The notes under the pieces are model-generated. The model saw only the letters and a list, made by a program, of their open reading frames with translations. It was not told the DNA's origin and did no database searches. DNA of 52,778 nucleotides from Nitrospirota bacterium (lineage in GTDB: Bacteria > Nitrospirota > Thermodesulfovibrionia > UBA6902): positions 1 through 52,778 of the forward strand of contig JACQZF010000089.1 in assembly GCA_016213945.1 (NCBI GenBank). Reading direction: 5' to 3'. Of the stretch, positions 34,354 through 52,552 are shown one piece after another. Position numbers and translations under genes: made by a program. The first letter of the stretch is position 1; the number at the start of each line of letters is the position of its first letter.

Positions 34354-35700
34354 ATGAAGCCGTCAATCCTGATAGTAGATGATGACAAGGCCGTTCGCGA
34401 GAATCTGGCAAAATATCTTTCCGGCGAATATATAACCTACACCGCCTCTAACGGTTATGAGGCCATCAAAAAGGTAAATGAGAACAGCGATATCGAAGTC
34501 ATCCTGAGCGATTTAAAGATGCCTGAGATGGACGGTATCGAGCTTCTGGAGAAAATAAAAAGCAGCAACAAGGACGTTGTTACCGTTTTTGTTACCGGAT
34601 TTTCCACGATAGAATCCGCTGTTGACGCGATGCGCAAGGGCGCATATGACTATCTTACCAAACCCATTGACCTGAACAAACTCGAAATAACCATCAAGAA
34701 TGCCCTTGAGAACAAAAAACTAAGGTCGGAAAATATCATGCTGAAGCAGCAAATCAGGGAGAAGTTCGACGCCACTACGCTGATCGGCAGTTCAAGAAAA
34801 ATTAAAGAGATCATGGACCTGGTAAAGCGTGTGTCAAACACAAAGGCAACCGTGCTGATATTAGGTGAGAGCGGAACTGGTAAGGAGCTTGTGGCAAATA
34901 TCATTCACTACAACAGCCTGGTCTCAAACGGCCCCTTTATAAAAGTCAATTGTTCCGCCCTGGCTGAAGGCGTTCTGGAAAGCGAGCTCTTCGGACACGA
35001 AAAAGGCGCATTTACCGGAGCGTTGTACATGAAAAGGGGAAGGTTTGAACTTGCTGACGGCGGCACATTGTTCCTTGATGAAATAGGAGACCTGCCTCCC
35101 TCCATCCAGGTGAAGCTGCTCAGGTTTTTGCAGGAATCCGAATTCGAAAGGGTAGGGGGCACAAAGACGATGAAGGTCGATGTAAGGATCATCTCCGCTA
35201 CCAACAAAGACCTTGAGCATCTCGTTAAGGAAGAAAAATTCAGGGACGATCTTTTCTACAGGCTGAAGGTCGTAACTATAGAGGTCCCTCCGCTCAGGGA
35301 CAGGAAGGAAGACATACAACTGCTTGTGGATTATCATCTCAGGAGATTCTCTGAGATCCACAATAAGAAAGTAAAAGGCATAACCGCCGACGCCATGAAG
35401 GTTATAAAATCATACAACTGGCCCGGTAATATAAGGGAGCTGATGAACTGCCTGGAAAGCGCGGTTGTCATGTCTCTCGGTGACATGATAGATGTCGATG
35501 CATTGCCTCCCTTCCTCACTATCAGGCAGGCGGAACAGTCGGCCCTGCCGAAATCCGCGGCAAATCTTTTTGAGATCGAAAAGAAGGCCATCTATGAAGC
35601 CTTAAAGAAGAGCCAGGGGAATAAAGCGGAGGCTGCCAGGATATTGGGAATCGGCTTAAGGACCCTCTACAGGAAACTGGAACAGTACGGGGAGATTTAG
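34354..35700 (+). CDS. NtrC-family sigma-54 response regulator
   Basis: 448 aa. Receiver domain (1-120) with phospho-acceptor D53 in LSDLKMPEMDG. The AAA+ domain (about 140-370) has Walker A GESGTGKE, the sigma-54 contact loop GAFTGA and the Walker B-like GTLFLDEIGDLP. The Fis-type helix-turn-helix at the C-terminus ends NKAEAARILGIGLRTLYRKLEQYG. All parts needed to activate sigma-54 promoters are intact. It is paired with the upstream kinase. Candidate targets in this window are the two sigma-54 promoters with shared upstream palindromes at 9.5 and 50.0 kb; this link is inferred. Confidence 0.95.
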   Translation: MKPSILIVDDDKAVRENLAKYLSGEYITYTASNGYEAIKKVNENSDIEVILSDLKMPEMDGIELLEKIKSSNKDVVTVFVTGFSTIESAVDAMRKGAYDYLTKPIDLNKLEITIKNALENKKLRSENIMLKQQIREKFDATTLIGSSRKIKEIMDLVKRVSNTKATVLILGESGTGKELVANIIHYNSLVSNGPFIKVNCSALAEGVLESELFGHEKGAFTGALYMKRGRFELADGGTLFLDEIGDLPPSIQVKLLRFLQESEFERVGGTKTMKVDVRIISATNKDLEHLVKEEKFRDDLFYRLKVVTIEVPPLRDRKEDIQLLVDYHLRRFSEIHNKKVKGITADAMKVIKSYNWPGNIRELMNCLESAVVMSLGDMIDVDALPPFLTIRQAEQSALPKSAANLFEIEKKAIYEALKKSQGNKAEAARILGIGLRTLYRKLEQYGEI

Positions 35701-35705
35701 CTTTT

Positions 35706-36281
35706 TCATTTCTGAGCGGTTGTCAGCCTGCTCAACTCTTTTTCAACACTCTCGATCCGGGAAAGTAAAGTTGGGAGATCTTCTTTTTTCAGTCCCTGAA
35801 GATCGCAATCCCCAAGCTTTTCGGAGACTTTCGTATATTTCTCGTTGATGATCCTGAATCTTTCCTTCAACTCTTTCAACATGCTGTCGAGGCATTCCGC
35901 GGTATCTTTAAAATCATCTTTCCCTCTCAATGCTATTTCTGTTGTAAGGTCTCCTTTTGCGGCTTTTGCTATGTCCTTTGACATCCTGTACAACGGGCCG
36001 GAGGATTTTCTCATCATCCATAATGCAATGATAATCAACAATGCGGAGACGAATATGAAACCGGTGATATTGATTTTAATGAACAGCGGCCTGAGGATGT
36101 CCCCTGTTGTTTGGGCGCTGATGTGCGTGCTCCACATCAGCCCCTCCAGTTCTTGCCTAACAAAAAAATTGAAGACCGCGGCGGCCGCAATGCTCCCCAA
36201 AAGCGACACAACCACAAACAGGAGGATGATTTTTACCTGGAAGCTTGCGTCGATGAGATATCTGCGTCTCCTGATTTTCAT
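35706..36281 (-). CDS. HAMP-domain membrane protein without output domain (first copy)
   Basis: 191 aa. Two membrane helices (about 16-38 and 70-89) enclose only about 30 periplasmic residues. Then come a HAMP domain (about 90-145: SSGPLYRMSKDIAKAAKGDLTTEIALRGKDDF) and a coiled coil to the end. There is no kinase, cyclase or methyl-accepting domain. The 'GPLYR' HAMP start is shared with the paralogue at 37101-37670. It is the last gene of the cytochrome operon, 10 bases after the 7-haem cytochrome. The function is unknown; it may be a membrane-signal adaptor or a scaffold for the cytochrome. Confidence 0.8.
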   Translation of the reverse strand: MKIRRRRYLIDASFQVKIILLFVVVSLLGSIAAAAVFNFFVRQELEGLMWSTHISAQTTGDILRPLFIKINITGFIFVSALLIIIALWMMRKSSGPLYRMSKDIAKAAKGDLTTEIALRGKDDFKDTAECLDSMLKELKERFRIINEKYTKVSEKLGDCDLQGLKKEDLPTLLSRIESVEKELSRLTTAQK

Positions 36282-36291
36282 TTAGCGCTCC

Positions 36292-37056
36292 TTATTTAAT
36301 ATGGCATTCAAGACATAACTCGCTGCCTTTGTTATCAATAACAAGCATGGACTTGTTTTTTGAATATACGTTATGGCAGGTGCCGCAGCCTATTTTCCCT
36401 TCATACAGTTTTATCTCCTCCCTGATCGTATCTGAGGGACGGAACCCGCGCATTTTCCTGGTGCTGATGCTTCTGTATGAAATACCTATAGGGTGTTTTC
36501 CCTCTTTCAGATGGGTCCAGATACCGGCGCCGAGAGAATTTCGCGGTTCTGAAATCTGTTTGTCATGGCATTGGATGCATTCCAGCGACATCCTGTCAAT
36601 GCGTGTGGCGTGGTCGGTTTCCTCATAGGTCCCTTTATGGATATTTTCAAAAACAATGTGCCTTTTTTCGTTGATCTTATGACAGGCGCTGCAGAACACG
36701 ACGCCTCTTACAGGCCGTCTGAGAAAGTAATGTTTCCCTGATGATTGTCTGCTTTCATCAATATGCGCGTAATGACATGTGAGACAGGTAAGCCTGCCGT
36801 CAGACAGCGGCATATCTTTGGGAATGGAAATCGTAGGATAAATGTCCGAGGGGTGCGACTGTGTTTTCGCATATTCCTTATGGCATGTCTGACACGCGTC
36901 CGTAATGTCCGCTGTTATATCGGCAGAGGAAGGCGCCGGGTCAAAGTGACAGAGGGCGCACTCTCCTTTTGAAAATTGATGCGGTCCGCGCGAGACGGAA
37001 TACACGAGCGCCGCTATGCTTAAGAGGAAAATTATAAATACAAATTTATCTTTCAT
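36292..37056 (-). CDS. Seven-haem c-type cytochrome (membrane-anchored or periplasmic)
   Basis: 254 aa. An N-terminal hydrophobic segment (about 5-20) serves as signal or anchor. Seven CxxCH motifs follow: CALCH, CQTCH, CLTCH, CSACH, CIQCH, CGTCH and a final CLECH four residues... near the C-terminus. Further His residues (HPSD, HYFL, HKGT, HPIG) could be distal ligands. It is likely a periplasmic electron carrier linking the inner membrane to the outer-membrane conduit. It is sandwiched between two HAMP-only protein genes with short gaps, which suggests the three work together. I do not recognise a named family. Confidence 0.9.
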   Translation of the reverse strand: MKDKFVFIIFLLSIAALVYSVSRGPHQFSKGECALCHFDPAPSSADITADITDACQTCHKEYAKTQSHPSDIYPTISIPKDMPLSDGRLTCLTCHYAHIDESRQSSGKHYFLRRPVRGVVFCSACHKINEKRHIVFENIHKGTYEETDHATRIDRMSLECIQCHDKQISEPRNSLGAGIWTHLKEGKHPIGISYRSISTRKMRGFRPSDTIREEIKLYEGKIGCGTCHNVYSKNKSMLVIDNKGSELCLECHIK

Positions 37057-37100: not shown

Positions 37101-37670
37101 CTACAGTTTTATTCCGCCTATGATATCTTTTATCCTTTTATCAGAACTATGGATTTTTTCAAGCACTGTTTTTGTTTCTTCGTTATTATCAATTAAGGTC
37201 CCGAGTTCGGTGAGGGACCCCTTTAGCCGTTTTATTTCCAGGGCCAGCTCCGTGACTTTATGGCCGTAGCTGCCGGTCATTTCGTTGATCGCCTCCGCGA
37301 ATGCATTGATCGCGTCCCTGCTCCTGAACTTGATGACGGTATCCAGACTCCCCTCAGCAATGGATTTCGCGCACTGTCTGACCCTGTAGAGCGGCCCGGC
37401 TATGCGGTGAGTGTAAAGGAGGGACAATAAGCCCGCCCCCGCTGCTGTTAAGATGAAAAATGCGGCGCCTATTGAAAAGGTTTTTATAACAAGCGATTCC
37501 CTGATGTCAGTGATGATTGTTATTATAGCGCTGTAATGAGTGTCGAGGGGCTTGTGAATATTGAGATAAAAGACCACGGCATAAACAGCCGTCCCAAAGA
37601 AAATAATAAGCAGCAGCGTTAACAGAAAGTTTCTCAGGAAATTCTCTTTTATGACCTTTTCAGGTTTCAA
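37101..37670 (-). CDS. HAMP-domain membrane protein without output domain (second copy)
   Basis: 189 aa, the same plan as the gene at 35706-36281: two membrane helices (about 13-33 and 61-85), a short periplasmic loop, a HAMP domain starting GPLYRVRQCAKSIAEGSL, then a coiled coil (about 130-185). No output domain. The two copies flank the 7-haem cytochrome gene. They are paralogues by layout, with low sequence identity apart from the HAMP part. The role is unknown. Confidence 0.8.
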   Translation of the reverse strand: MKPEKVIKENFLRNFLLTLLLIIFFGTAVYAVVFYLNIHKPLDTHYSAIITIITDIRESLVIKTFSIGAAFFILTAAGAGLLSLLYTHRIAGPLYRVRQCAKSIAEGSLDTVIKFRSRDAINAFAEAINEMTGSYGHKVTELALEIKRLKGSLTELGTLIDNNEETKTVLEKIHSSDKRIKDIIGGIKL

Positions 37671-38480: not shown

Positions 38481-41354
38481 TCATTTATTGTCTAACATTC
38501 TCTGAAATTCGTTCAGATTTTTGAGCGCGACTTCGTCGGCAGGGTTTAACGTCAGGGCGTGCTTGACTTCTCTGAGCGCTTCCTCAAGTTTCCCCTGTTT
38601 TGCAAGTATGACGGCGAGGTTGTTCCTGAGATTGGGAGAATCCTCGCCGTGCGACACCGCATTCCTGAAACTGCTGTATGCATCATCTATTCTGCCTGTC
38701 TGATAAAACAAAATCCCCAGGTTTGCATAAGCGCTGCCTGCGCCGGGATTAAGCTTAACTGCGGTTTGATAAGATTGAATTGCGCCGTACAAGTCTTTGG
38801 TAAGCATCCTCAGATAGCCGAGCTGGAGAAATGTCAGATAATTATCAGGATTAAGTTCAGAAGACCTGAGAAGGGCGCCTTTTGCGTTTGCAGGCAGATT
38901 GTTTTTTGCAAGGGCTTCACCCCATCTGCCCAGCAGCGCGGCCGCCTGGATTTTCTCGCCTGCTGTTACAGAGACAGCCGGGAATGACTCCTGAGACTTG
39001 TTTTTGTAAAGCTCAGTTACGTTGTCATTTAACGCTGTAGACAAATAGAGCGACTTGGGAGCGCGGTATTCAAGCAGAGGCAGGTTGTCCGTGTTGATCT
39101 CCCCGGTGCCTGCAAACCGTATCAACTCGGACTCTCCGAGAAGAAACGCCTTCAGGATGGTCCAGTCTTCAGTGTAGCCTATCCGCGACATGCTGTCTCC
39201 CACTGCAGGATGTTCTTTAAAGATATTTTCCAGCGCGACAGGGGAGAACGGCAGCTCTTTCATACTTCCTACAAAAATGACATCAGCGTATTCAGGGTCC
39301 ATCCAGAACGTCGTATGAGGGAAGACGGACAGGAAGGTGCGCGCAACGAGCTTGAGGGATTCCACACTCGTGCCGTAAAGATGCATCCACTGGACCATTA
39401 CACCGTCCGGCTTCAGAACGTTCTTTGCATTTACAAAGGCTTCGCGCGTGAAAAGCCTTGAGGAGCCGGCCTGCCATGGATTAGACGGTTCGGATATGAT
39501 GAGGTCATACTTTTTCTTTGTCGTGAGCACATAAGAGCGGCCGTCATCGAGGACCAGATTGAATCTCCTGTCCTTCATGATATTGTAATTTTCCTGTTCG
39601 AAGAAGGCACTGGCCTCTTTCATCGCGGGCTCTATCTCGACGCAGTCAATTTGACTTACATCATGCCGCGCCACTGCGCCTGCTGTTATCCCGCTGGCAA
39701 AGCCTATCACCAGCACTTCTTTTGAGTCAGGCTTAAGAACAAGCGGAAGATGGGCGATAAGCGCCTGTGTGGTCATGTCCCTGAAATTGCCGGCGTCTGT
39801 TTTGCCGTCAACGGCGAGGCGCACATGCTTACCTTCTTTTCTGACTGCAACTGTCGCGATAGGGCCTTCCTTGTAGTAGAGAAGCTCTGTCTTTGAAAGG
39901 CGGTCTTTTATGGGCGTGTTCTGGTACTGGACCGCATAGGCATACGGGCCGCTCGTCATTTTCTGTTTGTCCCACCCGGGCTGCCAGACAAATAAGAGAA
40001 GGAGCATGAATGACGCTGATACAGCGGCAAGAACAGTGTCGCTTTTAAGGCGTTTCTTTTTTAATGAAAATACGGCAAGCGCAACTGCGCATCCTAAGTT
40101 GATCATTATGGTCAGCAGTAACGTGCCCTGGATGCTTAAACGGGGCAGCAACACAAACCCGGCGATGAACGCGCCTATGATGGCTCCGACTGTATTGCCG
40201 GCATATAGAAAACCTATCCTCCTGCCGCTTGTGCCGAACCTTTCGACAACAATAGAGCCGGCAATCGGGAATGATGCGCCCATGAATATCGTTGCAGGCA
40301 CCATGACAACAAAACACAGCAGCGCCTGGGCAGTTAGAAAAATACTGAACGTTTCTCCCGTTGCCGCAAAGAGCCTGACAAAGGCCTCCGGCAGCAGCCC
40401 GAAGAAGGCCGCGGTAACAATGGCAAACAAACCGATTAGCACCTGACACAGGGCAAGAAGGCTTATGCCCCGCTCCCTGTTGTAAGAAATTCTGCTTACA
40501 ACGGCGCTGCCCAAAGCGATGCCCGCGAGAAATGTGGCCAACATTACAGTGAAGGCATATGTGGAGGAGCCGATGATGAGCGTAAGCACGCGTGTCCAGA
40601 CTACCTCATAAATCAGGGCGCACAGCCCGGAGAAAAATAGGGCCGCCGCCGCAAGCAGCGCGCTTGCTGACCAGCCCGAAACTGCAGCATCGCTTACTGC
40701 CGGTCCCAGAGCAGGCTTACTCTCCTGCACCTGCATCTTATAAGCCATGACAAATATGCCAATGTTTATCAGGCCGCTTGCCAGCAGGAGCAGGTTGATG
40801 CCCATTGACTGAAGAAGGAACAAACCGGAGGCGATGGTCCCGGTGACAGCTCCCGCCGTATTTATAAAATAGAGAAGCGAGAGCGCCTTGCCGGTGTTTT
40901 CAGTTTTATTATCGAAGAAGACTTTTGATAAAACAGGAAGCGTCCCGCCCATCATGATTGTCGGCGGGAGAAGCAGAAGCATTGATAATAAAAAACGCAG
41001 CATGGCCGCTTCCCAGAAACCGAATGCCTGCGTGCTGTGGATATACACATAGATTTTCCCGATGGCGGAAAAAATCAGGGGCGTTGTTAGGGCAAAGAGT
41101 CCTATGAAAAGCTCAAGCCATGCGTAAAGCCGCACAGGCCGCCGGACTGCGTCGGCCTTTCTTCCGATGAGGGCTGAACCTATTGCAAGCCCGCACATAA
41201 AGGTCGCCAGGACTGTGCTGACCGCAAGCATGGTGGAGCCGAAAAAAAGCGTCAGCAGCTTTGTCCATACGACCTGATAAATTAACGCCGTAGCGCCGGA
41301 GAGAAAAAACAGGCCGTAAAGTTTTTTATTTTTTGGGGTTGATAAATTCAGCAC
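38481..41354 (-). CDS. Fused MFS-like transporter / spermidine synthase-like / TPR protein
   Basis: 957 aa. The N-terminal part (about 1-445) has about 12 or more membrane helices in two similar halves; each starts with an 'ALIYQVVWTKLLTL..GSTMLAVSTVLATFM.GLAIGS' type repeat (compare ALIYEVVWTRVLTLIIGSSTYAF). The spermidine-synthase-like domain (about 480-740) has VLVIGFASGITAGAV, VEIEPAM, DDGRSYV and IISEPSNPW. Three or more TPR repeats close the protein (about 830-950). The aminopropyltransferase reaction is unproven for such fusions. They are common near cytochromes in anaerobes. It begins 3 bases after the 12-haem cytochrome stop, so it is firmly in the operon. Confidence 0.88.
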   Translation of the reverse strand: MLNLSTPKNKKLYGLFFLSGATALIYQVVWTKLLTLFFGSTMLAVSTVLATFMCGLAIGSALIGRKADAVRRPVRLYAWLELFIGLFALTTPLIFSAIGKIYVYIHSTQAFGFWEAAMLRFLLSMLLLLPPTIMMGGTLPVLSKVFFDNKTENTGKALSLLYFINTAGAVTGTIASGLFLLQSMGINLLLLASGLINIGIFVMAYKMQVQESKPALGPAVSDAAVSGWSASALLAAAALFFSGLCALIYEVVWTRVLTLIIGSSTYAFTVMLATFLAGIALGSAVVSRISYNRERGISLLALCQVLIGLFAIVTAAFFGLLPEAFVRLFAATGETFSIFLTAQALLCFVVMVPATIFMGASFPIAGSIVVERFGTSGRRIGFLYAGNTVGAIIGAFIAGFVLLPRLSIQGTLLLTIMINLGCAVALAVFSLKKKRLKSDTVLAAVSASFMLLLLFVWQPGWDKQKMTSGPYAYAVQYQNTPIKDRLSKTELLYYKEGPIATVAVRKEGKHVRLAVDGKTDAGNFRDMTTQALIAHLPLVLKPDSKEVLVIGFASGITAGAVARHDVSQIDCVEIEPAMKEASAFFEQENYNIMKDRRFNLVLDDGRSYVLTTKKKYDLIISEPSNPWQAGSSRLFTREAFVNAKNVLKPDGVMVQWMHLYGTSVESLKLVARTFLSVFPHTTFWMDPEYADVIFVGSMKELPFSPVALENIFKEHPAVGDSMSRIGYTEDWTILKAFLLGESELIRFAGTGEINTDNLPLLEYRAPKSLYLSTALNDNVTELYKNKSQESFPAVSVTAGEKIQAAALLGRWGEALAKNNLPANAKGALLRSSELNPDNYLTFLQLGYLRMLTKDLYGAIQSYQTAVKLNPGAGSAYANLGILFYQTGRIDDAYSSFRNAVSHGEDSPNLRNNLAVILAKQGKLEEALREVKHALTLNPADEVALKNLNEFQRMLDNK

Positions 41355-41357
41355 TTA

Positions 41358-43136
41358 TTAATATGCCCTTGCGTCATGATTGCTGCCATGACATGTAAGA
41401 TAACATCTGCCGCTGAATGTTCCCGTATCTTCAAACAGCAGTCTCCCCAAACTGTCTGGCGTGACAACCGTGGTATCGAAGTTTATCAAATGCGTATTGT
41501 TTATGGAATTGCCCTGAGTAGAGCTTATGCCGTGTGCGTCGTGACAGATGGAGCAGGGGGCGTTTTCAACTGCCACGTGCCTGTTATGTTTAAAACTCTG
41601 GTCGCTCAGGATGCTGGTCCTATCGTGGCACTTGTAACAGAGATCGTAGTTGTACGGGTTTTCCTGGGTATTATCGAGAGTCGTGTAGTTCCTTTCAAGC
41701 AAATACTGATAACTTGACCCGTGAGGGCCGCGGGGGCCGATAGTATTGTCATTACTATGGCAATCCGTACAGAAAATAATACTCGCGGTTGTATAAGGCG
41801 GAAGGAGGCTTGGGATATTCGGATTAACACCCTGGTTCTCTACGGGGTGATATGATGGGTTTAGGGGGGAGAACTCAAGGCGCGTGTTCATCTGCACGAT
41901 CTGCCTGTCAACATAAAATGTGGTCAACACGTTGTTGTCCGCATGGCACTTGTAACATATCTCAAACTGGTTTGGCGCATTAACAATCTGCTGTCCCGCT
42001 GAATTAATGCCGGTAACGCCGGTGGTCATGCCTGATACCTGCGGCGCGCCTGGCGAGGGGGTTGAATTTGACTGGTGCGGATTGTGGCAATCCTCGCATT
42101 CAACGTGTTTCTGCACGGTCACTGTAAAGTTTTCTCTGGGATTGTGGATGTCCGGGTAGTTCTGAACGGCGTGTTTAAAAGGTTTTGTAAGCTCAGTTTC
42201 TATATTGGTGAATGCTACGTTTCCGTTATGGCAAACAATGCAATTGTCTTCCTCAAAAGTATAGTTGAGGAGCCTTTCATGTTTGCCTGCGGTATGGGGT
42301 TTATGACAGTTTTCACAGCCGTTTTCCGCAACGGTCTCATAAGAAGTATGCGGCCATGGATCTGCGCCGATGCTGTTCCATGAGGCAGTTGAAATTGCGT
42401 GTGAAGAAAGAAACCAACCCTGCTTCTGGTGGCATAATGTGCAAAGGTTTGAATTAATATTTTGCACTACAAGGAATTGGCTGTTGATATTATTATGCGG
42501 GTCATGGCATGAGGTGCACTGTAACTGGCCTGAATTGTCAAGTTTTACCTCCGGTGGAAGCGCGGCGGGGAATGCAAGTTCGCCGTTTGCACCTGCGAGC
42601 GCGCTGTCATAAACAAAAGAGACCGGGTGGTCGTCAGAAAGGTCCGTGCCGAGCTTTGAAGCGCCTTCAGGTATAAACCTGATGCCGCCAACGAAAGGGA
42701 CCTCAGCGGGTTTTGATACCAGAGCGCCAAGCGCAATGGTGCCGTCATGACAACTAAGGCACATTTTAGAGGCCCCTGAAGGCTGCCCTACTGTTGCAAT
42801 AAGAGTTGAGCTTTGATAGGGCGTATAGCTTGCCGTTGAATCATAACGGTTCCAGAGATAGGGAGTATCCCGTCTTGCATGGTGAGGCGCGTGGCAAAAA
42901 ATGCATATTTCCTCTTCTGTCGTTGATTTGATAGTGCCCGGACCGCTTATGGATAAATTGTGTTTTGTATCCACAATGCTTGTCGATACCGACGGCGGAG
43001 GCGGCGGAGGCGGCGGCACAGAAGGAGGCGGTGGAGGTGGTGGTGGAGGCTGGGCTATAAGCGAATCGAGACAAAATAACGATGCCGCTCCTGAAATCAG
43101 AAGTATGATTATAATCTTGTATGCAATGCGTTTCAT
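41358..43136 (-). CDS. Twelve-haem cytochrome c with poly-proline stretch
   Basis: 592 aa. Signal peptide (about 1-29), then a stretch of about 20 Pro/Ser/Val residues (about 30-50), then 11 CxxCH motifs and a last CYLTCH (CX3CH). The first four motifs (CIFCH.PH, LWNRYD, CLSCHDGTIAL, DHPVSF.YD, CTSCHDPH, CTLCH) follow the same order as the tetrahaem cytochrome at 49180-49890. The first third therefore looks like a fused copy of that module. The remaining eight motifs extend it. It is probably outer-surface or periplasmic. The Pro run suggests a cell-envelope-spanning or wall linker. It lies directly after an NHL lipoprotein gene. Confidence 0.9.
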   Translation of the reverse strand: MKRIAYKIIIILLISGAASLFCLDSLIAQPPPPPPPPPSVPPPPPPPPSVSTSIVDTKHNLSISGPGTIKSTTEEEICIFCHAPHHARRDTPYLWNRYDSTASYTPYQSSTLIATVGQPSGASKMCLSCHDGTIALGALVSKPAEVPFVGGIRFIPEGASKLGTDLSDDHPVSFVYDSALAGANGELAFPAALPPEVKLDNSGQLQCTSCHDPHNNINSQFLVVQNINSNLCTLCHQKQGWFLSSHAISTASWNSIGADPWPHTSYETVAENGCENCHKPHTAGKHERLLNYTFEEDNCIVCHNGNVAFTNIETELTKPFKHAVQNYPDIHNPRENFTVTVQKHVECEDCHNPHQSNSTPSPGAPQVSGMTTGVTGINSAGQQIVNAPNQFEICYKCHADNNVLTTFYVDRQIVQMNTRLEFSPLNPSYHPVENQGVNPNIPSLLPPYTTASIIFCTDCHSNDNTIGPRGPHGSSYQYLLERNYTTLDNTQENPYNYDLCYKCHDRTSILSDQSFKHNRHVAVENAPCSICHDAHGISSTQGNSINNTHLINFDTTVVTPDSLGRLLFEDTGTFSGRCYLTCHGSNHDARAY

Positions 43137-43190: not shown

Positions 43191-44243
43191 TTACGGCGTA
43201 GAAAGCTCTCCCCCTTTTAAATATTGAAATACCTGTATCCTGTTATTGTATGAATCCGATATATATATCCTGTCATTAATGTCAATGAAAATTCCAGAGG
43301 GAAGCCAGAATTCCCCGTAACCGGTCCCGGGTTTCCCGAAATCCATTAGGAGCCTTCCTTCCTTATCGAATATCTGAACATTATCAAAAAGCGCGTCGAC
43401 AACATAGATATTGCCGTCGCTGTCAACGGCAACACCCCTGGGCCTTGAAAAATACCCTGGACCGTCTCCGGCCCTGCCGAATGTCTTTAGGAACCTTCCG
43501 TCTTCGGTAAAGACCTGGACCCTGAAGTTAAGAGAATCAGTAACAAAGAGGCGGCCCTCTTGCGAGGTGAATATATTTGTAGGGGAGTGAAACAGCCCGT
43601 TTGTGTTTCCTTCTTTTCCTATTACACCTTTGACTTTATGAGCTTCAGCGTCATAGCGTATTATTTCTGAATTGAGCGTGTCCACTACAAGAAGCTCTCC
43701 GGTTTTTTCGTTAAACGTTAATCCCGTCGGCCGTCCGAGCAAACCTCTGCCAAGTTCGCCTGCGTATTTTCTTCCGTTTTCTTTAAAGACCTTGATTACA
43801 GCTTCTTGTGAGTCAGAGATATAGAGGGTGCCATGATTGTCAATCGCAATGCCTATCGGTGATATAAAAGCGGTCCCGTCCTTAGGGAAAGTGTAGTAAG
43901 AATTGTGTTCTTCATCCAGCACATGGACCTGTTTGTGAAAATTGTCCACAACGAAAATGCGTCCTTCCCGGTCTGCTGTAATGCCGTAAGGATTAACGAG
44001 AGGTATTTCTTTCTCGCCCTTCAGGAACCTGAAAAATTTGGCGAAGAAATTCTGTCTGATATTTACATCCTCTGCCCCGGATATTGAATTGACAAACCGT
44101 ATGCGGGGGATTGCAGGAGGCTGGGGCCAGATTATATCAGGCAGGGCCTGTCTCGTCTCTGTAACCTGTTTGAAACACCCCTGCGTAACCGGAAGGAGCG
44201 TAAGGACCAGAACAACCGCAGAAAGTTTTATCAATGCTCTCAT
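43191..44243 (-). CDS. NHL-repeat lipoprotein (beta-propeller), copy 1
   Basis: 350 aa. Lipoprotein signal with lipobox VTQGC (Cys about 23). The mature part is a six-bladed NHL propeller; repeats such as NPYGITADREGRIFVVDNFHKQVHVLD, SRPRGVAVDSDGNIYVVDALFDNVQIFD and LPSGIFIDINDRIYISDSYNNRIQVF-type segments are plain. NHL propellers are protein-binding platforms and are often encoded beside multihaem cytochrome genes. It probably sits at the outer membrane and helps to assemble or anchor cytochromes; that role is inferred. It is similar in plan to the lipoprotein at 46983-48074. Confidence 0.92.
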   Translation of the reverse strand: MRALIKLSAVVLVLTLLPVTQGCFKQVTETRQALPDIIWPQPPAIPRIRFVNSISGAEDVNIRQNFFAKFFRFLKGEKEIPLVNPYGITADREGRIFVVDNFHKQVHVLDEEHNSYYTFPKDGTAFISPIGIAIDNHGTLYISDSQEAVIKVFKENGRKYAGELGRGLLGRPTGLTFNEKTGELLVVDTLNSEIIRYDAEAHKVKGVIGKEGNTNGLFHSPTNIFTSQEGRLFVTDSLNFRVQVFTEDGRFLKTFGRAGDGPGYFSRPRGVAVDSDGNIYVVDALFDNVQIFDKEGRLLMDFGKPGTGYGEFWLPSGIFIDINDRIYISDSYNNRIQVFQYLKGGELSTP

Positions 44244-44261: not shown

Positions 44262-46253
44262 TTAGAATGATTCCCTTTTTACATTAACCAGAAAGACATG
44301 GTTTAGACGGCTTTCGTCAGATATCTTGTCTTTTTCATCAGAATAAGTATAGCTGATGTCTCCGTGGTATATGCCGTAAAACCATTGGTAAACAGATGAA
44401 AGTCCCTTTTCCTCTGTTCTTACCGCAGGCCCCGACAATGTGTTCCAGAAACTCTCCACTGTGAGAAAGCTGTTGTCCGAAATAATCCTCTGCAAATTAA
44501 TTCTGGCGCCGTTGGCTTTGTCCGTACCGCCCGTCTCTTTGACAGTTGACTGTCCCGTGCTCCCTGAAATGCTTATAAATAATCTGTCCGTCAGGCTTGC
44601 AGAAATTGTTTCAGATGCCCGCCAGGTTTTGATCGAAATGCTCGAGGAGCGGCTGTCGCTGAAATCTATGACGGTCTTACTCCATTTCCACGTTAATGTT
44701 GCGCCGGCAAACTGACCGTAACTGGCGGTCAGGGTTTCAGGCTCCACACCTCTCAGAAAATGCTGTTTGGAGCGGCTGATCCTGTAATAGAAATCGAGCA
44801 TGTCCCATAAGCTGGCGTTGACTCCGTAGGTGCTGTCAAAGACATAATAATCAAAGGGCGGGTTATTGCGATATTTGTAGTGAATAAAAACAGGGGCGCC
44901 GCTGCCGCATTTATCAGTGGGGCCGTCAATGTTCCCTCCGTTAATGCAGGTTATCCTTACAGAGTCCCCTATTTTAGTTGTTTCGTAATCAAGGCCTGAT
45001 GCATAGATTGCTCCGAAACCGTCAAAACCCGACTTCTCTGTGACCACGATTGAATCAAGTTCGATAAGCTCATTTGCAAGCAGCGTTATTTCGCCGAACC
45101 TGAGATTGACAGGCTCGTCAGTCACGGGGATGAACTCGGAGACAAGATTTAAATCGAAATGCCTGTATGTATGCCCCATATGGGCGCCAAGCCTGCCCCA
45201 GGGGATTTTCCTTGAATAATTCCAGCTTAGGCCGGTTGTAAAGATGTTCTCCTTTCCGCTTTGCGATTGGTTCCTGGTCCCCTCGATATCGAGCGAGGTT
45301 GTAAGGTTTTCATAAAGAAGATGGTCCAGCCCAAACCCGATTCCCTTGAATTCCCTTCTTCCCGCGTTTCCCATATTATTTCTCTCATAACGCACGCTGT
45401 AATTAGTAGTAAGATTTTTGCTGTGCCGCAATGACAGGCTGTCAGCCCAATTCAGTATCCTGCTGGAGGAGAAATCACTCCGGGTGTCCCTTAAGACGAG
45501 AGAAGTATTTAGCGATGCTGTTTTATTCTCCGGGAAGCTGTAGAAATTTTGCAAGGTCACATCCTTTATAAGCGTGCTGAAGGAGGTCCCCCTTTGCGAA
45601 GTAATGTTGTCCGAATATAAGGCCGACAGCCTTGTATCTCCCAGGTGCCTGTCATATTTAGTATCCATTCTAACAGCATTTTCTCTGTTGCTGTTTGAAA
45701 AAAACCCCGTCTGTCTGTTTTCAGTATGATTATAAGACAAGGTCGTGGGGAGCGTCTGGTATTTTATATCAAGGATGGCACGGAAGACGTCTGTTTCCCT
45801 TTCGGTCCGTTCGGCAAAGGAGCTATAAAGTGCTGACATGTATTTGGCCCCGTATAAGGTCAATGTATAGGGTTTATACGGCAGGATTGTGAATTTTGTT
45901 AAGTAGCCCTCAAGAGAGCTTCTCGAACTGTCCGTGCCTTCATCTCCTGATTTCCTGTAGGCCTGATTCCATTCCGGGGAAAATATGAGCGTGTATTGAA
46001 GAAGAGCAGGGTGGTAGACCCAGCCTTCTGTTTCGATATCGAGCCGTTCGGAAAAGGAAGTATGGGTGGACGTGCTTGTCACGGCGCCGTCCCTCTGGTC
46101 ATCTTCATATCTGAATGAAAAATCAACTCCAAGCTTCGGCCTTTCAATATGAAAAGTATCAATGGCATATACTTGCCCTCTGCCGGCGAGCAGGAAGATA
46201 ATTATGCACAACAGGCATATCGCATTTCTGATAAACGGCTTCCTGTAAGACAT
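44262..46253 (-). CDS. Outer-membrane beta-barrel of a putative porin-cytochrome conduit
   Basis: 663 aa from the ATG at 46251-46253; an upstream in-frame TTG (46292) is less likely. A signal peptide (about 1-32, ending GQVYA) is followed by a long run of alternating polar/aromatic strands (SFRYEDDQ, LQYTLIFSPEWNQAY, TLSYNHTENR, LSLRHSKNLTTNYSVRYE, DFYYRISRSK), ending in Phe as barrel proteins do. About 20 or more strands are likely. No CxxCH is present. Its place between haem lipoproteins and NHL lipoproteins fits the barrel of a trans-outer-membrane electron conduit, but it has no clear MtrB/PioB signature. One Cys pair (RITCINGG, TDKCGSG) may form a loop disulfide. Confidence 0.8.
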   Translation of the reverse strand: MSYRKPFIRNAICLLCIIIFLLAGRGQVYAIDTFHIERPKLGVDFSFRYEDDQRDGAVTSTSTHTSFSERLDIETEGWVYHPALLQYTLIFSPEWNQAYRKSGDEGTDSSRSSLEGYLTKFTILPYKPYTLTLYGAKYMSALYSSFAERTERETDVFRAILDIKYQTLPTTLSYNHTENRQTGFFSNSNRENAVRMDTKYDRHLGDTRLSALYSDNITSQRGTSFSTLIKDVTLQNFYSFPENKTASLNTSLVLRDTRSDFSSSRILNWADSLSLRHSKNLTTNYSVRYERNNMGNAGRREFKGIGFGLDHLLYENLTTSLDIEGTRNQSQSGKENIFTTGLSWNYSRKIPWGRLGAHMGHTYRHFDLNLVSEFIPVTDEPVNLRFGEITLLANELIELDSIVVTEKSGFDGFGAIYASGLDYETTKIGDSVRITCINGGNIDGPTDKCGSGAPVFIHYKYRNNPPFDYYVFDSTYGVNASLWDMLDFYYRISRSKQHFLRGVEPETLTASYGQFAGATLTWKWSKTVIDFSDSRSSSISIKTWRASETISASLTDRLFISISGSTGQSTVKETGGTDKANGARINLQRIISDNSFLTVESFWNTLSGPAVRTEEKGLSSVYQWFYGIYHGDISYTYSDEKDKISDESRLNHVFLVNVKRESF

Positions 46254-46308
46254 ATCCTGATTATGTATTCTCCTTTGTAACGCAAGGGGCAAGATATTTT
46301 ACCCGAAG

Positions 46309-46986
46309 TCAAAAAGCCTCATCATAATCTTTTTTCAGTAAAAACCTGTTCATGCCGACATGTGGATTATGGCATGAGGTGCAGTCTTCATCCTTTCTGT
46401 GTTCTTCGGTATCCATAATAAAGCCCTTTATGTGGCATTTCGTGCACATATCCTTTGAATTTCCTTTCAGAAGCAGATACGGATACAGGGATTGATGGGG
46501 ATTATGGCAGGCAGTGCAGATGCCTTCGGATACAGGCCCGTGGACCCACAAGCCCAAGTTAAAAGCGGCACTGACGGATTTAGATGTATGGCAGTCTATG
46601 CACAGCTCTTTAACGGGTAATATAAGCCTTGACACTGTATCAAGGGCGGCTACGGACGGGATATTTTTGTCAGGGGTGTCCAGTTTTCTGCTAAAGGTTG
46701 CAGTGCTTGAAGTGGAATGACACTGATTACACTGCGACGCGCCGTAAGGGCCATGGGCATAAGAGGGGATATCCCTTTTGTCTTTTCTTTTTTTGAGCTG
46801 CTCAGCTTTTGTGATACTGCCTCCCGTTTCAACAGGCTCTTCTTTTCCCGCAAGCGGAGGCACGCCGGTAAAGAAAAAGGTCAATATCTTGTAATTGGTA
46901 TACTTGTCACATCCTGCTATGAAGACCGAGAATAAACACAATAAGCTCATACATGCTATAAATTTATTTCTTCCTGTCAGCTTCAA
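46309..46986 (-). CDS. Five-haem c-type cytochrome, lipoprotein
   Basis: 225 aa if read from the TTG at 46984-46986, which overlaps the previous stop as TTGA. This start gives a classic lipoprotein signal (positively charged MKLTGRNK, hydrophobic core, lipobox FIAGC, Cys 25); another TTG at 47031 is possible. Five motifs follow: CNQCH, CIDCH, CTACHNPH, CTKCH and CTSCHNPH. A Lys-rich linker lies between the anchor and the first haem. It is probably attached to the outer membrane, facing the barrel encoded by the next gene. I do not recognise a named family. Confidence 0.87.
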   Translation of the reverse strand: MKLTGRNKFIACMSLLCLFSVFIAGCDKYTNYKILTFFFTGVPPLAGKEEPVETGGSITKAEQLKKRKDKRDIPSYAHGPYGASQCNQCHSTSSTATFSRKLDTPDKNIPSVAALDTVSRLILPVKELCIDCHTSKSVSAAFNLGLWVHGPVSEGICTACHNPHQSLYPYLLLKGNSKDMCTKCHIKGFIMDTEEHRKDEDCTSCHNPHVGMNRFLLKKDYDEAF

Positions 46987-48074
46987 TTTATTTTTTGCGG
47001 CGTAATGCCTGGAAGGGGAGCGCCTGTCCAATCGCCGAAACCGTATACGTTTATTTTATGCTCTCCGAGCATATTGCCTACGAAGACAAGGTATTTCACC
47101 TTGAAATCCTTGTCAATATATTTTTTGAAATAATCTATGTTCTGGTAGTCAATATGGATGCTGTTTGGCATATACATACTGCCTGGCTCAGGCCCGAATC
47201 CGCCGAAGAAAAGCACGAGTCTGGTAGTCTCACCGTCAAATATCTGCACGTTCTCAAAGGCGGTGTCAACAACATACAGGTAGCCTTCGTCATCGACGCT
47301 TATGCCTTTAGGCCGTGCAAATCCTCCGAGGGTGTCTCCCTGGTAGCCGAAGGTCTTTTCAAATTTACCCAGAGAGTCGAATTTCTGCACCCTGAAGTTA
47401 AAGGAATCGTTTACATATATGCTGCCGTATTTGTCTATAACTATGTGAGAAGGCTTGTACAACTTCCCCTCTTCTGATCCCGCCTCCCCGATAGTCTGCA
47501 CAACCTTCCCTGAGTCCCTGTCAAGAATGATTATCTGGTGTTTATCGAAGTCGCAGACATATATCTTGTTTTCATATACAACCACGTCCATAGGTTTGGC
47601 GAACTGCTCCTCTGAGCCGTAAGCCTTGACATAGTTATTCTGTGCATCAAAAACCAGTATCTGCTTCCGTGTCAAATCTGCTATATACTTATATCCGTCT
47701 TCAGTCACCCATATGCCTCCCGGGCTGCTGATCTGGCCTTCCTTTTCATCTTTTATGTAGTCAAACTCCTTCTTGTCGAGATCCAATATAAGTATTTTCT
47801 TGAAGGTCCTGTCAGAGACATAAATCTTGCCTTTTGCCGTTGTAATTCCGACTGCCCTTGCCACCTGTTTCTGGGCTATTGTCTGCCCGACAAGAAATTC
47901 CATAAGGACGTCCTTCTTCTTTCCCAAATCCTCTTCTGTTGAAATGGACATTAAAAACTGAAGCTTGGGGTTCTGCGGCGGCATTGGATAAAAAACGGTC
48001 TGTATCTTCTGTCTATCGGTTGCGCATCCAAACAATAACAATACAGCTAAAAAACCAAAAAAGTGTTTCTTCAT
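46983..48074 (-). CDS. NHL-repeat lipoprotein (beta-propeller), copy 2
   Basis: 363 aa. Signal MKKHFFGFLAVLLLFGC with lipobox LLFGC (Cys 17). Six NHL-like blades follow, for example VGITTAKGKIYVSDRTFKKILILD, KPSHIVIDKYGSIYVNDSFNFRVQKFD and RPKGISVDDEGYLYVVDTAFENVQIFD-like stretches. The C-terminus has a short extra tail. The start overlaps the previous gene's stop by 4 bases (ATGA). It is a paralogue of the gene at 43191-44243 and probably a binding platform for the cytochromes in the operon. Confidence 0.92.
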   Translation of the reverse strand: MKKHFFGFLAVLLLFGCATDRQKIQTVFYPMPPQNPKLQFLMSISTEEDLGKKKDVLMEFLVGQTIAQKQVARAVGITTAKGKIYVSDRTFKKILILDLDKKEFDYIKDEKEGQISSPGGIWVTEDGYKYIADLTRKQILVFDAQNNYVKAYGSEEQFAKPMDVVVYENKIYVCDFDKHQIIILDRDSGKVVQTIGEAGSEEGKLYKPSHIVIDKYGSIYVNDSFNFRVQKFDSLGKFEKTFGYQGDTLGGFARPKGISVDDEGYLYVVDTAFENVQIFDGETTRLVLFFGGFGPEPGSMYMPNSIHIDYQNIDYFKKYIDKDFKVKYLVFVGNMLGEHKINVYGFGDWTGAPLPGITPQKIN

Positions 48075-49060
48075 TGCTTCTCCTGTTTCTTTTCATTAGT
48101 TGTTTTATCTCCATGGCCAAACGATTCCTCTTTGGAATCTTTGATGCCGGTTGGGTTTTGTGCTTTTTCTGCCTGTCGTTTCAGGTCCTCTTCCCTGCTT
48201 CGTTTCAGTTCTTCCACTGTAGCGTCTGTCCCCGGAAGCGGAGAGGTCTTTATCATGTTAAATACAGGGCTGTACCTGTCATATTCGGCGGTCCTGTGAC
48301 AGGTGGTCGCGCATTTGCCACCGGCGTCCTTTTTTTCATAAGTTAAAGGAAGCATTCTGTTGCCGAAGGGAACATTGTCTCTGACAAGCGCAAAATTATC
48401 CAGGCCGTGCGGGTGATGGCATACTGCGCAGGTCCTGCCTTTTGTTTTATTGACATGAAGGAAATGCAGGTTTCGATTGCCGTTTCTGAACAAGGTGAGG
48501 GAAAGCGTCCTCGGCTCCAAAAGCGCCTGGTCAAAACCTTTGTGACACTTTATGCACAGGGTGTATGCTTCAACGGAAAAGGAGGCATACAATCCCTCAG
48601 GATACTGGAACTTAAGGTGTTTGTAGAAATCGCTTTCATGAGCGTCATGGCATTCAGTGCATTTCCCTTCAGCAAACGGAGTATGAAGCTTCCTGTCTTT
48701 ATCTTTTGATATCACCACAGGGGGCGACTTCTTAAGCTCTTTCTTTAATTCGCCGGAGACAGGGAATTCCTCACTGTGGCATTTTTCACAAAAGGGTTTT
48801 GTTATCAAAGTTATTATTTTAAAAACGTGTTCATCTTCTTTTATGGTCTCATGACACCTGTGACACTGTTTACCGTCTACCCCGGCCATATGAACATATT
48901 TTTTCTTGCCCATGGCTGCATGACATGATGCAGAGATACACGATTCGCCGGGGGTCAGAGTAATTAATTTCTTTTCTTCAGCGGAAAAAGCGGATACAAG
49001 CAGGGAACTTCCGAGAATAATACAGACAAAAAAAATAGAATAAGATTTCATAGGATTCAT
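48071..49060 (-). CDS. Seven-haem periplasmic cytochrome c with unusual CX4CH and CX3CH sites
   Basis: 329 aa, first gene of the long cytochrome operon. Signal peptide (about 1-27, ending AFSAEE; the ATG at 49051 is an alternative start). Haem sites: CISASCH (CX4CH), CHRCH, CEKCH, CTECHDAH, CIKCH, CAVCHHPH and CATTCH (CX3CH). The C-terminal 60 residues are a charged, haem-free tail. The non-standard spacings are known in some multihaem cytochromes and are probably used, since His follows in each. The stop overlaps the NHL lipoprotein start by 4 bases. Its likely role is electron transfer through the periplasm. Confidence 0.88.
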   Translation of the reverse strand: MNPMKSYSIFFVCIILGSSLLVSAFSAEEKKLITLTPGESCISASCHAAMGKKKYVHMAGVDGKQCHRCHETIKEDEHVFKIITLITKPFCEKCHSEEFPVSGELKKELKKSPPVVISKDKDRKLHTPFAEGKCTECHDAHESDFYKHLKFQYPEGLYASFSVEAYTLCIKCHKGFDQALLEPRTLSLTLFRNGNRNLHFLHVNKTKGRTCAVCHHPHGLDNFALVRDNVPFGNRMLPLTYEKKDAGGKCATTCHRTAEYDRYSPVFNMIKTSPLPGTDATVEELKRSREEDLKRQAEKAQNPTGIKDSKEESFGHGDKTTNEKKQEKQ

Positions 49061-49130
49061 TGCGATTCTAAATTATATAATAAACGTTCCAGAAATTACT
49101 ATCAGCGGCAATCCTCTAATTTTATAGCTA

Positions 49131-49163
49131 AAAAAAAAGGCGGGGATAACCCCCGCCTTTTTT
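49131..49163 (-). terminator. Rho-independent terminator after the tetrahaem cytochrome gene
   Basis: GGCGGGG (49139-49145) pairs with CCCCGCC (49151-49157). It has A8 on one side and T6 on the other, so it works in either direction. On the minus strand it is followed by T8. It lies 17 bases past the stop. Confidence 0.93.
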
Positions 49164-49179
49164 GATAAAGATTTCGACC

Positions 49180-49890
49180 TTACTTAATATGGCAGGTAAG
49201 GCAGAGTCCTGATGCTGAACCGCCAGTTGCTACGGTCTGAGCAACTCTTAAAAGATGTGTGCCTGCTACAGCTTCCTGGTCATGAACATCATGGCAGGAG
49301 GAGCACTGTACTTTTCCGTTATCAAGAACTTCAGCTATGGTACCGCTTGTGCCTATTGCTGTAGCTGTTGCAACAGCTAAGTTAACATCACCACCGGCAG
49401 CTGGATCATCATTGTAAGTGATCGAGATCGGGTGGGTTCCTCTGAGGTCAAGGTTGGTCCCGTCTAAGAAGCCCGGAATTTTGTATCCGGCATTGTAACC
49501 GCCGATGAAGATGGTACCGCCTGCATATTTGTCGAATGTGTCGATTGCGACTGTACCGTCATGGCAGCCAAGACAGAGTTTTGCTGTTCCATCAGGCTGA
49601 GCTGAAGAAACGCCGTTGATTGAGCTGCTCCATGCATTGTTGTACATGGTGTATGTTGCGGAGCTTACTCCGTGGTTCCACAGCAATCCGTTGAGATAGT
49701 ACTGTGTTGCTAACTGATGGTCGTGAGGCACATGGCATACACGACAGATTTCCTGTCTTGCATTCCATACGTCTGTTGAGAAATCATGCGGGCTTCCTGC
49801 AATACCCATACCAAGACCGTTTGCAAGGGCCATGCTTGCTACCCCGGCTGTCAATAATACAGCCAATGCGAGAATGATTATTTTTTTCAT
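49180..49890 (-). CDS. Tetrahaem cytochrome c, OmcE-type nanowire subunit candidate
   Basis: 236 aa. Signal peptide (about 1-23, cut after ALA). Four CxxCH motifs: C49, C106, C196 and C230. The order PHDFS, CRVCHVPH, LLWNH, CLGCHDGTVAID, THPISITY, CSSCHDVH, LLRV, LCLTCHIK and the total size match what I recall of OmcE of Geobacter and related tetrahaem cytochromes that polymerise into extracellular filaments. Filament formation is inference. It is a single gene with an AGGAGG site, a structured leader, a sigma-54 promoter and a strong terminator, consistent with high, regulated expression. A plain periplasmic tetrahaem carrier is the alternative. Confidence 0.88.
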   Translation of the reverse strand: MKKIIILALAVLLTAGVASMALANGLGMGIAGSPHDFSTDVWNARQEICRVCHVPHDHQLATQYYLNGLLWNHGVSSATYTMYNNAWSSSINGVSSAQPDGTAKLCLGCHDGTVAIDTFDKYAGGTIFIGGYNAGYKIPGFLDGTNLDLRGTHPISITYNDDPAAGGDVNLAVATATAIGTSGTIAEVLDNGKVQCSSCHDVHDQEAVAGTHLLRVAQTVATGGSASGLCLTCHIK

Positions 49891-49914
49891 TCTGCACCTC
49901 CTAAAATTTGATTG

Positions 49915-49946
49915 TACGATAACAGCTAAGCTGTTTTTTTATCGTA
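49915..49946 (-). promoter_or_regulatory. 5' leader hairpin of the tetrahaem cytochrome mRNA
   Basis: TACGAT/ATCGTA outer pairing and AACAGC/GCTGTT inner pairing with an A-rich bulge. It begins about 6 bases after the predicted sigma-54 start site and lies 25 bases before the ATG, clear of the AGGAGG site. A 5' hairpin in this place would be expected to stabilise the mRNA. Confidence 0.5.
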
Positions 49947-49962
49947 TCTGGATTGAGTAAAA

Positions 49963-49978
49963 TGCAAGTGCTATGCCA
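49963..49978 (-). promoter_or_regulatory. Sigma-54 promoter of the tetrahaem cytochrome gene
   Basis: On the minus strand TGGCATAGCACTTGCA fits the TGGCAY-N5-TTGCA consensus at every fixed position, with GG and GC 10 bases apart. The predicted start is near 49952, giving a leader of about 60 bases. Confidence 0.8.
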
Positions 49979-50053
49979 GAATGTAAAGGCTCTAAAATCA
50001 AAAAGTTAGATAACTGAGACTGGTTTTGAACTGCCACTATGACAAGGTAAATT

Positions 50054-50066
50054 TGCCATTTTGGCA
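50054..50066. promoter_or_regulatory. Candidate enhancer (UAS) for a sigma-54 activator
   Basis: Palindrome TGCCATTTTGGCA (the complement of TGCCAAAATGGCA), centred about 82 bp upstream of the -24 element of the tetrahaem gene promoter. The identical 13-mer lies about 79 bp upstream of the PilZ gene's sigma-54 promoter. Confidence 0.6.
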
Positions 50067-50152: not shown

Positions 50153-50965
50153 TTATTTTTTCAGAATAGAATCAATGGACTGTTTGAAATCGTTAAGAGA
50201 TCTTTGCTGCATTCTTTTGCCGTTAATAAAAAGAGTAGGTGTTCCAGTCACCCCAGCGCTTCTTGCAAGCGCCATATCCTGCTGGATCAATTGATCATAT
50301 TTGTTGCTTGAGAAGTCCGCTGAAAATTTTTCTACATTCAACCCGATCTGCTGGGCCAGCTCTTTATAGATGCCGTCATTAAGTTTATTGAAGTTCTGGA
50401 AGATAAGGTCGTGCATTTCCCAGAACTTCCCTTGTTCTTTTGCGGCCTCGGCGGCCTTTGCGGCGTTCATGGCTTGCTGATGGAATGGCAGGGGGTAGTG
50501 TTTAAAAACAAGTTTCGCCTCTTTTGGGTATGCCTTAAGGACCTCACTTAGGGTCTGTTGTAACTGTGAGCAATAGGGACACTGAAAATCCGAGAATTCA
50601 ACAATAGCGGCCGGAGCATTCTTGTTGCCTTTTACCGCTGAACTGACAACCGGCAGGTTATAAATTTTATTGAAATCAACGGTTGGTCTTGCAGGCGCGG
50701 CTTGTGCCTGCACGGTTGAAATCTTTTTCTCGAGATCAGATATCCTGGCGAGTATTTCTTTCTGTGAATTTTGGATGTCTGTCGCCGAGTTTTTAATGTC
50801 CGCGACCGAATTCTGCAAATTTGTCAGGTTGTCTTTGATCTCTTTCAGCGTCTCCATTTCAGGAGAGACGGCTTTAACATCTTTTGGAGTCTCCTTATTA
50901 GTACAACCTGAGATAAAAAGAATAACACTTAAAAGAATAGACAATGCAAAAATAAATCTTTTCAT
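50153..50965 (-). CDS. DsbA/thioredoxin-fold lipoprotein with coiled coil
   Basis: 270 aa. Lipoprotein signal with lipobox LFISGC (Cys 21). A coiled coil (about 35-85, repeated NLQNSVADIKNSATDIQNS heptads) acts as a stalk. The DsbA-like thioredoxin domain (about 105-268) has the redox motif CPYC (129-132) and the cis-Pro in GVTGTPTLFING. It probably forms or shuffles disulfides, or reduces haem-binding Cys, in the periplasm. The neighbourhood of cytochromes makes a role in their folding plausible but unproven. It is a single gene with a strong terminator. AAGGAG lies 8 bases before the ATG. Confidence 0.92.
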   Translation of the reverse strand: MKRFIFALSILLSVILFISGCTNKETPKDVKAVSPEMETLKEIKDNLTNLQNSVADIKNSATDIQNSQKEILARISDLEKKISTVQAQAAPARPTVDFNKIYNLPVVSSAVKGNKNAPAAIVEFSDFQCPYCSQLQQTLSEVLKAYPKEAKLVFKHYPLPFHQQAMNAAKAAEAAKEQGKFWEMHDLIFQNFNKLNDGIYKELAQQIGLNVEKFSADFSSNKYDQLIQQDMALARSAGVTGTPTLFINGKRMQQRSLNDFKQSIDSILKK

Positions 50966-51526: not shown

Positions 51527-52552
51527 TTATTCTTCAGCGCTGGTGCCCGGCACCATAAATGATTTGTTATGGTCATGGCAAAGCATGCAGTAGGCGCCGT
51601 CATAATTAATCCCGTCTGCATGTACGCCGTTGCCTGTTCCATCGCCTTTATTATGGCTTGTGTTCGCATGACAAGTTTCGCAAATGTTTTCATTTCGCGG
51701 AGGACCGTCTGCCAGCGAACCCGGCCCAATGCGTTTTGTGTTTACAACGTTGCTGCCTGGAATTACACTAAACTCAATTTGCGGCCTGAGAAGTTTTCTA
51801 TTGCCCTCAACTGAGATCATTGGATCATGGCAGTCTACGCACATGATGCTGTATGTGTAGTTACCGGTTGCAAATTCGTTCCTGGCCGGGTCGCTTGTAT
51901 GCGCATCACGTTCGCCGTGGCATCTCTGGCAGTTTGTATCAGGGATCTTTGCACTGAAGTCAACCCTGCCTCCACTTTCAACATGGCATAACTGACAGTT
52001 GCTGTTAAAGAAGGCAGTATTGTGCGGGCTTTGAGCGACTCCCCCTGATGGATAGAAGCCGTCTGCATGCGGATGACAGTCGGTGCACTTTTTGCCGTCA
52101 AAATGGCCGACATAGCTCCCGCCTTTTGCATCGCCGGGGGCTGAGCCGTCTCTGCGGTGATGGTTGGTCTGTGTATGGCACATTTCGCAAACGTTCTCAT
52201 TGTAAGGCACTCCGTCTGCAAATGAGCCGGTCCCTGTAGGTGCGGTGAATTTCACGAACTCCTGTATGTTCAGGCCTGTAACAGGATTATCGAAACAGAT
52301 ATATTCTTTGATATATTTACCGTAGGTAGTTTTGTATGCGAGATTCTGCTCCTGCTGGTGAGGGTTGTGGCAGGTTGTACAGCTTGTGTCCCAGTTGCCG
52401 TATTTTGCTCCTACTACAATGGATGAGTGCATCTTTACATTAGGCGCTGAGCCGAATCCATATGGCGGGGCGAGCGGGTACTGTGTCTTAAATGTCCCGT
52501 TCAGAGGGTCTGATGTGTCGTTAGGGTCCGCATGGCAGCGCTGGCACTGGTA
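51527..52552 (-). CDS. Multihaem cytochrome c, part downstream of an in-frame TGA
   Basis: The open frame continues for 341 codons after a TGA at 52553-52555; the first ATG is at 52430-52432. Nine CxxCH motifs: CQRCH just after the TGA, then CTTCHNPH, CEMCH, CTDCH, CQLCH, CQRCH, CVDCH, CETCH and CMLCH. Repeats of the type 'FADGVPYNENVCEMCHTQTNHH' and 'LADGPPRNENICETCHANTSHN' show internal duplication. It is in the same frame as the upstream piece at 52553-52777, so the two are one gene. The missing residue would most simply be Trp (TGG to TGA). If the TGA is real, this part may be untranslated. Confidence 0.8.
   Translation of the reverse strand, partial: YQCQRCHADPNDTSDPLNGTFKTQYPLAPPYGFGSAPNVKMHSSIVVGAKYGNWDTSCTTCHNPHQQEQNLAYKTTYGKYIKEYICFDNPVTGLNIQEFVKFTAPTGTGSFADGVPYNENVCEMCHTQTNHHRRDGSAPGDAKGGSYVGHFDGKKCTDCHPHADGFYPSGGVAQSPHNTAFFNSNCQLCHVESGGRVDFSAKIPDTNCQRCHGERDAHTSDPARNEFATGNYTYSIMCVDCHDPMISVEGNRKLLRPQIEFSVIPGSNVVNTKRIGPGSLADGPPRNENICETCHANTSHNKGDGTGNGVHADGINYDGAYCMLCHDHNKSFMVPGTSAEE

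Follow-up and report, generated by a model that had tools for sequence, protein, structure and literature searches.

A candidate OmcE-type filament cytochrome and its conserved gene cluster in an uncultured Nitrospirota bacterium

The gene cluster headed by the tetrahaem cytochrome

The window is a stretch of 52,778 nucleotides, positions 1 to 52,778 of contig JACQZF010000089.1 (assembly GCA_016213945.1), from a Nitrospirota bacterium. Its main features are a series of cytochrome, NHL and porin-like genes on the minus strand, followed by a two-component pair on the plus strand:

49180–49890, minus strand: gene A, 236-aa tetrahaem c-type cytochrome, OmcE-like, with a Sec signal peptide and without a lipobox
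48071–49060, minus strand: gene B, 329-aa multihaem cytochrome with five CXXCH motifs, a CX3CH and a CX4CH
46983–48074, minus strand: gene C, NHL beta-propeller lipoprotein
46309–47031, minus strand: gene D, pentahaem cytochrome with a lipobox
44262–46292, minus strand: gene E, predicted outer-membrane beta-barrel
43191–44243, minus strand: gene F, second NHL beta-propeller lipoprotein
41358–43136, minus strand: gene G, 592-aa cytochrome with 11 CXXCH motifs and an invariant CX3CH (41388–41405)
42420–42983, minus strand: OmcE-like subunit domain within G (approximately residues 52–239), a candidate filament-docking domain
36292–37056, minus strand: cytochrome K, with seven haems, conserved at the cluster end in relatives
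37101–37670 and 35706–36281: two HAMP-domain-like proteins flanking K, conserved at the cluster end in relatives
34354–35700, plus strand: NtrC-family sigma-54 activator, a conserved neighbour
32758–34320, plus strand: HAMP histidine kinase, a conserved neighbour

The preliminary description of this DNA had gene A standing alone. This is contradicted by synteny in relatives, which places A at the head of a conserved porin/cytochrome/NHL cluster; the same-strand gene B begins 119 bp downstream of A. Gene A may nevertheless form its own transcript. Gene E has no match in Pfam or the PDB, and its prediction as a beta-barrel is based on this absence of other matches and on a C-terminal Phe, which is present in 37 of 49 homologues.

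Nitrospirota relatives keep the gene order A, B, C, D, E, F, G. In rearranged form, the cluster also occurs in metagenome-assembled genomes labelled Desulfobacterota, Bacteroidota, Calditrichota, Gammaproteobacteria, Verrucomicrobia and others, these phylum labels being record titles of which some are perhaps mis-binned. On one contig of 67% GC, labelled Rubrivivax sp. (L033), the cluster is complete and contains even the H gene, which is missing from most relatives; its tandem activator sites match those of the window, with 53 bp separating them from a sigma-54-like site. This locus may have arisen by transfer between phyla or may be mis-binned.

Three further genes in the window were observed. 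A 957-aa spermidine-synthase/TPR membrane protein is encoded between G and I (38481–41354) and is missing from the clusters of most relatives. A DsbA-like lipoprotein gene lies just upstream of A (50153–50965), as it does in loci L036, L118 and L121. Near the contig end, a multihaem open reading frame without a signal peptide (51527–52432) may come from a larger cytochrome that has been truncated or frameshifted.

Kinship of gene A with OmcE and the subunit-like domain of G

The haem-binding motifs and candidate distal ligands of gene A are distributed along the whole protein:

49786–49788, minus strand: His35, candidate distal ligand, invariant in 41 relatives
49732–49746, minus strand: haem site 1, CRVCH, residues 49–53, invariant in the alignment of relatives
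49723–49725, minus strand: His56, candidate distal ligand
49561–49575, minus strand: haem site 2, CLGCH, residues 106–110
49432–49434, minus strand: His153, candidate distal ligand
49291–49305, minus strand: haem site 3, CSSCH, residues 196–200
49282–49284, minus strand: His203, candidate distal ligand
49189–49203, minus strand: haem site 4, CLTCH, residues 230–234

In the 41-relative alignment, the invariant His residues of the A family are exactly 35, 53, 56, 110, 153, 200, 203 and 234. Four of these belong to the CXXCH motifs and four do not, and all eight align with His residues in OmcE and in 9YUQ. Single-sequence phmmer searches of the PDB with A returned 9YUQ (1.3e-12) and OmcE (7TFS; 1.4e-7), both near full length; the identity between A and OmcE is about 31%. 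A profile search against OmcE-type cytochromes had been proposed as a check in the preliminary description; the A-family profile, built from 41 relatives of many phyla, matched OmcE 7TFS with E=2.9e-44 and 9YUQ with E=1.8e-41, both over their full length. The assignment of the 236-aa tetrahaem protein to the OmcE type was upheld by the full-length profile match and the eight conserved ligands.

Kinship is not orthology in this case. In the tree, OmcE and 9YUQ adjoin the clade of G domains and lie outside the clade of window A, so A is a member of the superfamily and its identification as an OmcE orthologue in the narrow sense was rejected. Membership in the OmcS family was also rejected, as OmcS matches only a C-terminal stretch of the A profile (0.003). 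The best OmcE orthologue in the searched sample reached 65%, and G. sulfurreducens itself was not recognised there. No relatives were found on the viral contigs searched.

A complete OmcE-like subunit is also present as the N-terminal domain of G (E=4.9e-30 against OmcE), and its eight ligands are invariant across 37 sequences. Among 80 loci, many of them truncated, 46 full-length G-type proteins with 10–11 CXXCH motifs were identified. The G N-terminal domains form one clade with a support of 0.995, which indicates that the fusion was probably single and old. From its sequence, the invariant CX3CH of G (41388–41405) is a possible twelfth haem site in this ‘undecahaem’ protein. The OmcE-like domain in G appears to be new; a link between Uet, OmcE and G may have been published outside the open-licence literature.

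Expression signals, leader and regulators

The region around the start and end of gene A contains the following signals:

50054–50066, minus strand: promoter-distal activator site, palindrome TGCCAAAATGGCA
50032–50044, minus strand: promoter-proximal activator site, palindrome TGTCATAGTGGCA
49963–49978, minus strand: sigma-54 promoter TGGCATAGCACTTGCA, a perfect match to TGGCAYRNNNNTTGCW
49915–49946, minus strand: 5′ hairpin TACGATAAAAAAACAGCTTAGCTGTTATCGTA, −9.6 kcal/mol, with the outer stem of the relatives' c-di-GMP-I riboswitch and without its core
49897–49902, minus strand: Shine–Dalgarno sequence AGGAGG of A
approximately 49130–49163, minus strand: intrinsic terminator between A and B, a 13-bp perfect stem followed by a T-run

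Across the two strands of the window, three sites reach a score of at least 10; the sigma-54 site of A is among them, and no other lies in the A leader. The frequency of these signals was measured against shuffles that keep base composition only, and among related loci that are not independent. Of 111 upstream regions, three duplicate loci included, 28 have a sigma-54 site with no more than one mismatch (0.17 in shuffles). In a non-redundant set of 108 upstream regions, 12 have a tandem activator site (0.0 in shuffles), and a terminator follows A in 27 of 59 relatives (0 in shuffles). The distance from the tandem activator site to the sigma-54 site was 53–56 bp in 12 of 12 cases. The sigma-54 promoter, upstream activator site and strong terminator claimed in the preliminary description are present and recur in relatives far above shuffles, and its perfect AGGAGG was located as well. 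A generic terminator scan did not list the terminator at 49130–49163. Four more tandem activator sites occur in the genome (C12:27635, C24:12763, C54:75762 and C83:2331), and those at C12 and C54 precede predicted surface-protein genes with sigma-54-like sites.

Two-component control, which the preliminary description suggested for a filament, is matched by the histidine kinase and NtrC-type regulator, a pair that adjoins the cluster in relatives too. The neighbouring NtrC-type regulator presumably acts on the tandem activator sites. Its identification as AtoC or as the PEP-CTERM response regulator was rejected, the scores falling below curated cut-offs.

Nine relative loci have intact Rfam c-di-GMP-I aptamers in their leaders; eight of these loci are distinct, since L034 and L113 are one contig. 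The leader of L056 contains c-di-GMP-I-GGC. Model R1, which detected the riboswitch in L123, had itself been built with L123. In the window leader, no intact c-di-GMP-I aptamer reached the gathering score. Model R1 nevertheless matched both outer stem strands of the window hairpin with 16.3 bits and, for the window as a whole, E=0.013; this was its best match in the window. The preliminary description was correct that a 5′ hairpin exists, but its role as a stabilising element is not supported, since the structure resembles a c-di-GMP-I remnant.

The alternative is that the hairpin is an ordinary mRNA-stabilising structure unrelated to any riboswitch. The modest relic match would allow this, as a second, unrelated place in the window scores 14.1 bits; the best R1 match, however, sits at the orthologous position, between the promoter and AGGAGG, and the outer-stem sequence AGATACGAT...ATCGTA is common to relatives with intact riboswitches. 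An ordinary hairpin is accordingly given about one chance in four, and descent from a c-di-GMP-I riboswitch is suggested, not proven, by the sequence match. The genome encodes two other c-di-GMP-I riboswitches (C98:5743–5819 and C69:23627–23707), of which the first precedes the gene for a 742-aa predicted surface protein; no link of either to cytochrome genes was found.

Filament formation, alternative readings and known systems

In the OmcE filament, a distal His from one subunit reaches the haem of the adjacent subunit. From its sequence kinship, A is likely an OmcE-type filament subunit. It is proposed that A is secreted and assembles extracellularly into a filament that carries electrons and has four bis-His haems per subunit, and that one distal His of A probably extends to the next subunit, as it does in OmcE. 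Electrons would be carried across the outer membrane by the lipoprotein pentahaem D inside the beta-barrel E, with the NHL propellers C and F serving as a scaffold, and G, which carries a copy of the filament subunit at its N-terminus, would join this conduit to the filament. The kinase and NtrC-type regulator would switch on transcription of A, acting through sigma-54 and the tandem activator sites. In many relatives the leader also contains a c-di-GMP-I riboswitch, of which only the outer stem seems to be left here. The terminator after A would hold subunit output above that of its partners, and A is probably the most strongly expressed gene of the cluster. We infer the relative expression, localisation and direction of electron flow in this A–G system. 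As a whole explanation, the combination of an A filament, a D/E conduit, the joint G and kinase/NtrC-switched sigma-54 expression is assigned a probability of roughly 0.6. Points against it are the low identity of A to OmcE, the place of OmcE beside the G domains in the tree, the lack of G near Geobacter omcE genes and, in the Uet literature covered, the absence of any description of UetA as a filament.

Alternatively, A could remain a monomer throughout and shuttle electrons with its four haems, either in the periplasm or after release, docking on G or on minerals. The conserved ligand set would also be expected if the four distal His residues closed within the chain, the A family is large and sequence-variable, and an A-type domain is also found covalently fused inside G. 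Against this, the only two solved full-length homologues are the OmcE filament (7TFS) and a 16-chain entry (9YUQ), and the promoter and terminator that A possesses at the cluster head fit a subunit made in excess. A shuttle is given somewhat better than one chance in four. The homologous domain in G also makes a heteromeric A–G contact plausible, and tandem A copies (L033, L039, L041 and L062) could form a short, defined stack, as expected if A and G built a surface complex of fixed stoichiometry in which a short A cap sat on G without a long filament. In most loci, however, A is single-copy with its own terminator, which suggests an excess of A and leaves this capped complex improbable.

The AlphaFold models of A (pLDDT 53 from 41 sequences) and G (pLDDT 60 from 37 sequences) are both too poor to place haems or to assign a His to the haem of an adjacent subunit, and a Foldseek comparison of the A model found no matching chain. 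A structure with all ligands in one chain would exclude only joining of the OmcE/OmcS type, because OmcZ polymerises with all haem ligands inside one chain (PMC9473688).

The anchoring and electrical joining of cytochrome nanowires to the outer membrane is, to our knowledge, an open question. The OmcZ paper leaves possible tip proteins aside (PMC9473688). G is a candidate filament base because its N-terminal OmcE-like subunit domain has all eight ligands; judging from sequence, it would contact A. As a tentative proposal, rated at rather less than even odds, G is the nanowire base, a conduit cytochrome with a built-in subunit copy that starts the filament and passes electrons to it, in an arrangement that is ancient and spread over many phyla. 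The subunit domain in this conduit partner offers a specific candidate for the filament–membrane joint. In the A cluster, predicted filament production is also coupled to a sigma-54 switch under two-component control, and in relatives additionally to a riboswitch of the c-di-GMP class. Such regulation links life on surfaces to electron transfer over long distances in Nitrospirota that are uncultured.

Like A, the subunit of the OmcE filament of Geobacter sulfurreducens (7TFS) is a secreted tetrahaem cytochrome with four CXXCH motifs and four further aligned His residues; the rise of the OmcE filament is 34 Å (PMC12954529), and the physiological role of OmcE filaments is disputed (PMC11077965, PMC13194489). 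The entry 9YUQ (‘putative multiheme cytochrome c’, 16 chains) is a 218-aa full-length homologue of A with the same ligands. Geobacter omcE loci share multihaem and NHL neighbours with the window cluster, and a large downstream open reading frame in the orthologue loci may be a barrel. They differ in having one NHL gene and 8/10-haem neighbours, and no G gene lies nearby, which suggests that OmcE filaments can do without a neighbouring G. In Geobacter, GEMM-I cyclic-dinucleotide riboswitches lie upstream of cytochrome genes (PMC6456294). The A relatives are similar in that the leader of a gene for an extracellular cytochrome contains a riboswitch, but theirs is Rfam c-di-GMP-I (a predicted ligand class), and that of the window is degenerate or lost.

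The window cluster also resembles the published Uet cluster, uetA–J, of Ca. Tenderia and Gallionella (PMC10734462, PMC12575090), the two being likened by composition and description. The Uet literature covered calls UetA, the likely counterpart of A, extracellular and does not describe it as a filament. The window cluster differs in its pentahaem D and 5- to 7-haem B, and neither the trihaem UetDEG nor the peptidylprolyl isomerase UetB was recognised among the window open reading frames. Both clusters combine an extracellular tetrahaem cytochrome (predicted to be so for A), a beta-barrel, NHL proteins and an undecahaem cytochrome, and in the window the tetrahaem, the predicted beta-barrel, two NHL proteins and the undecahaem occur together.
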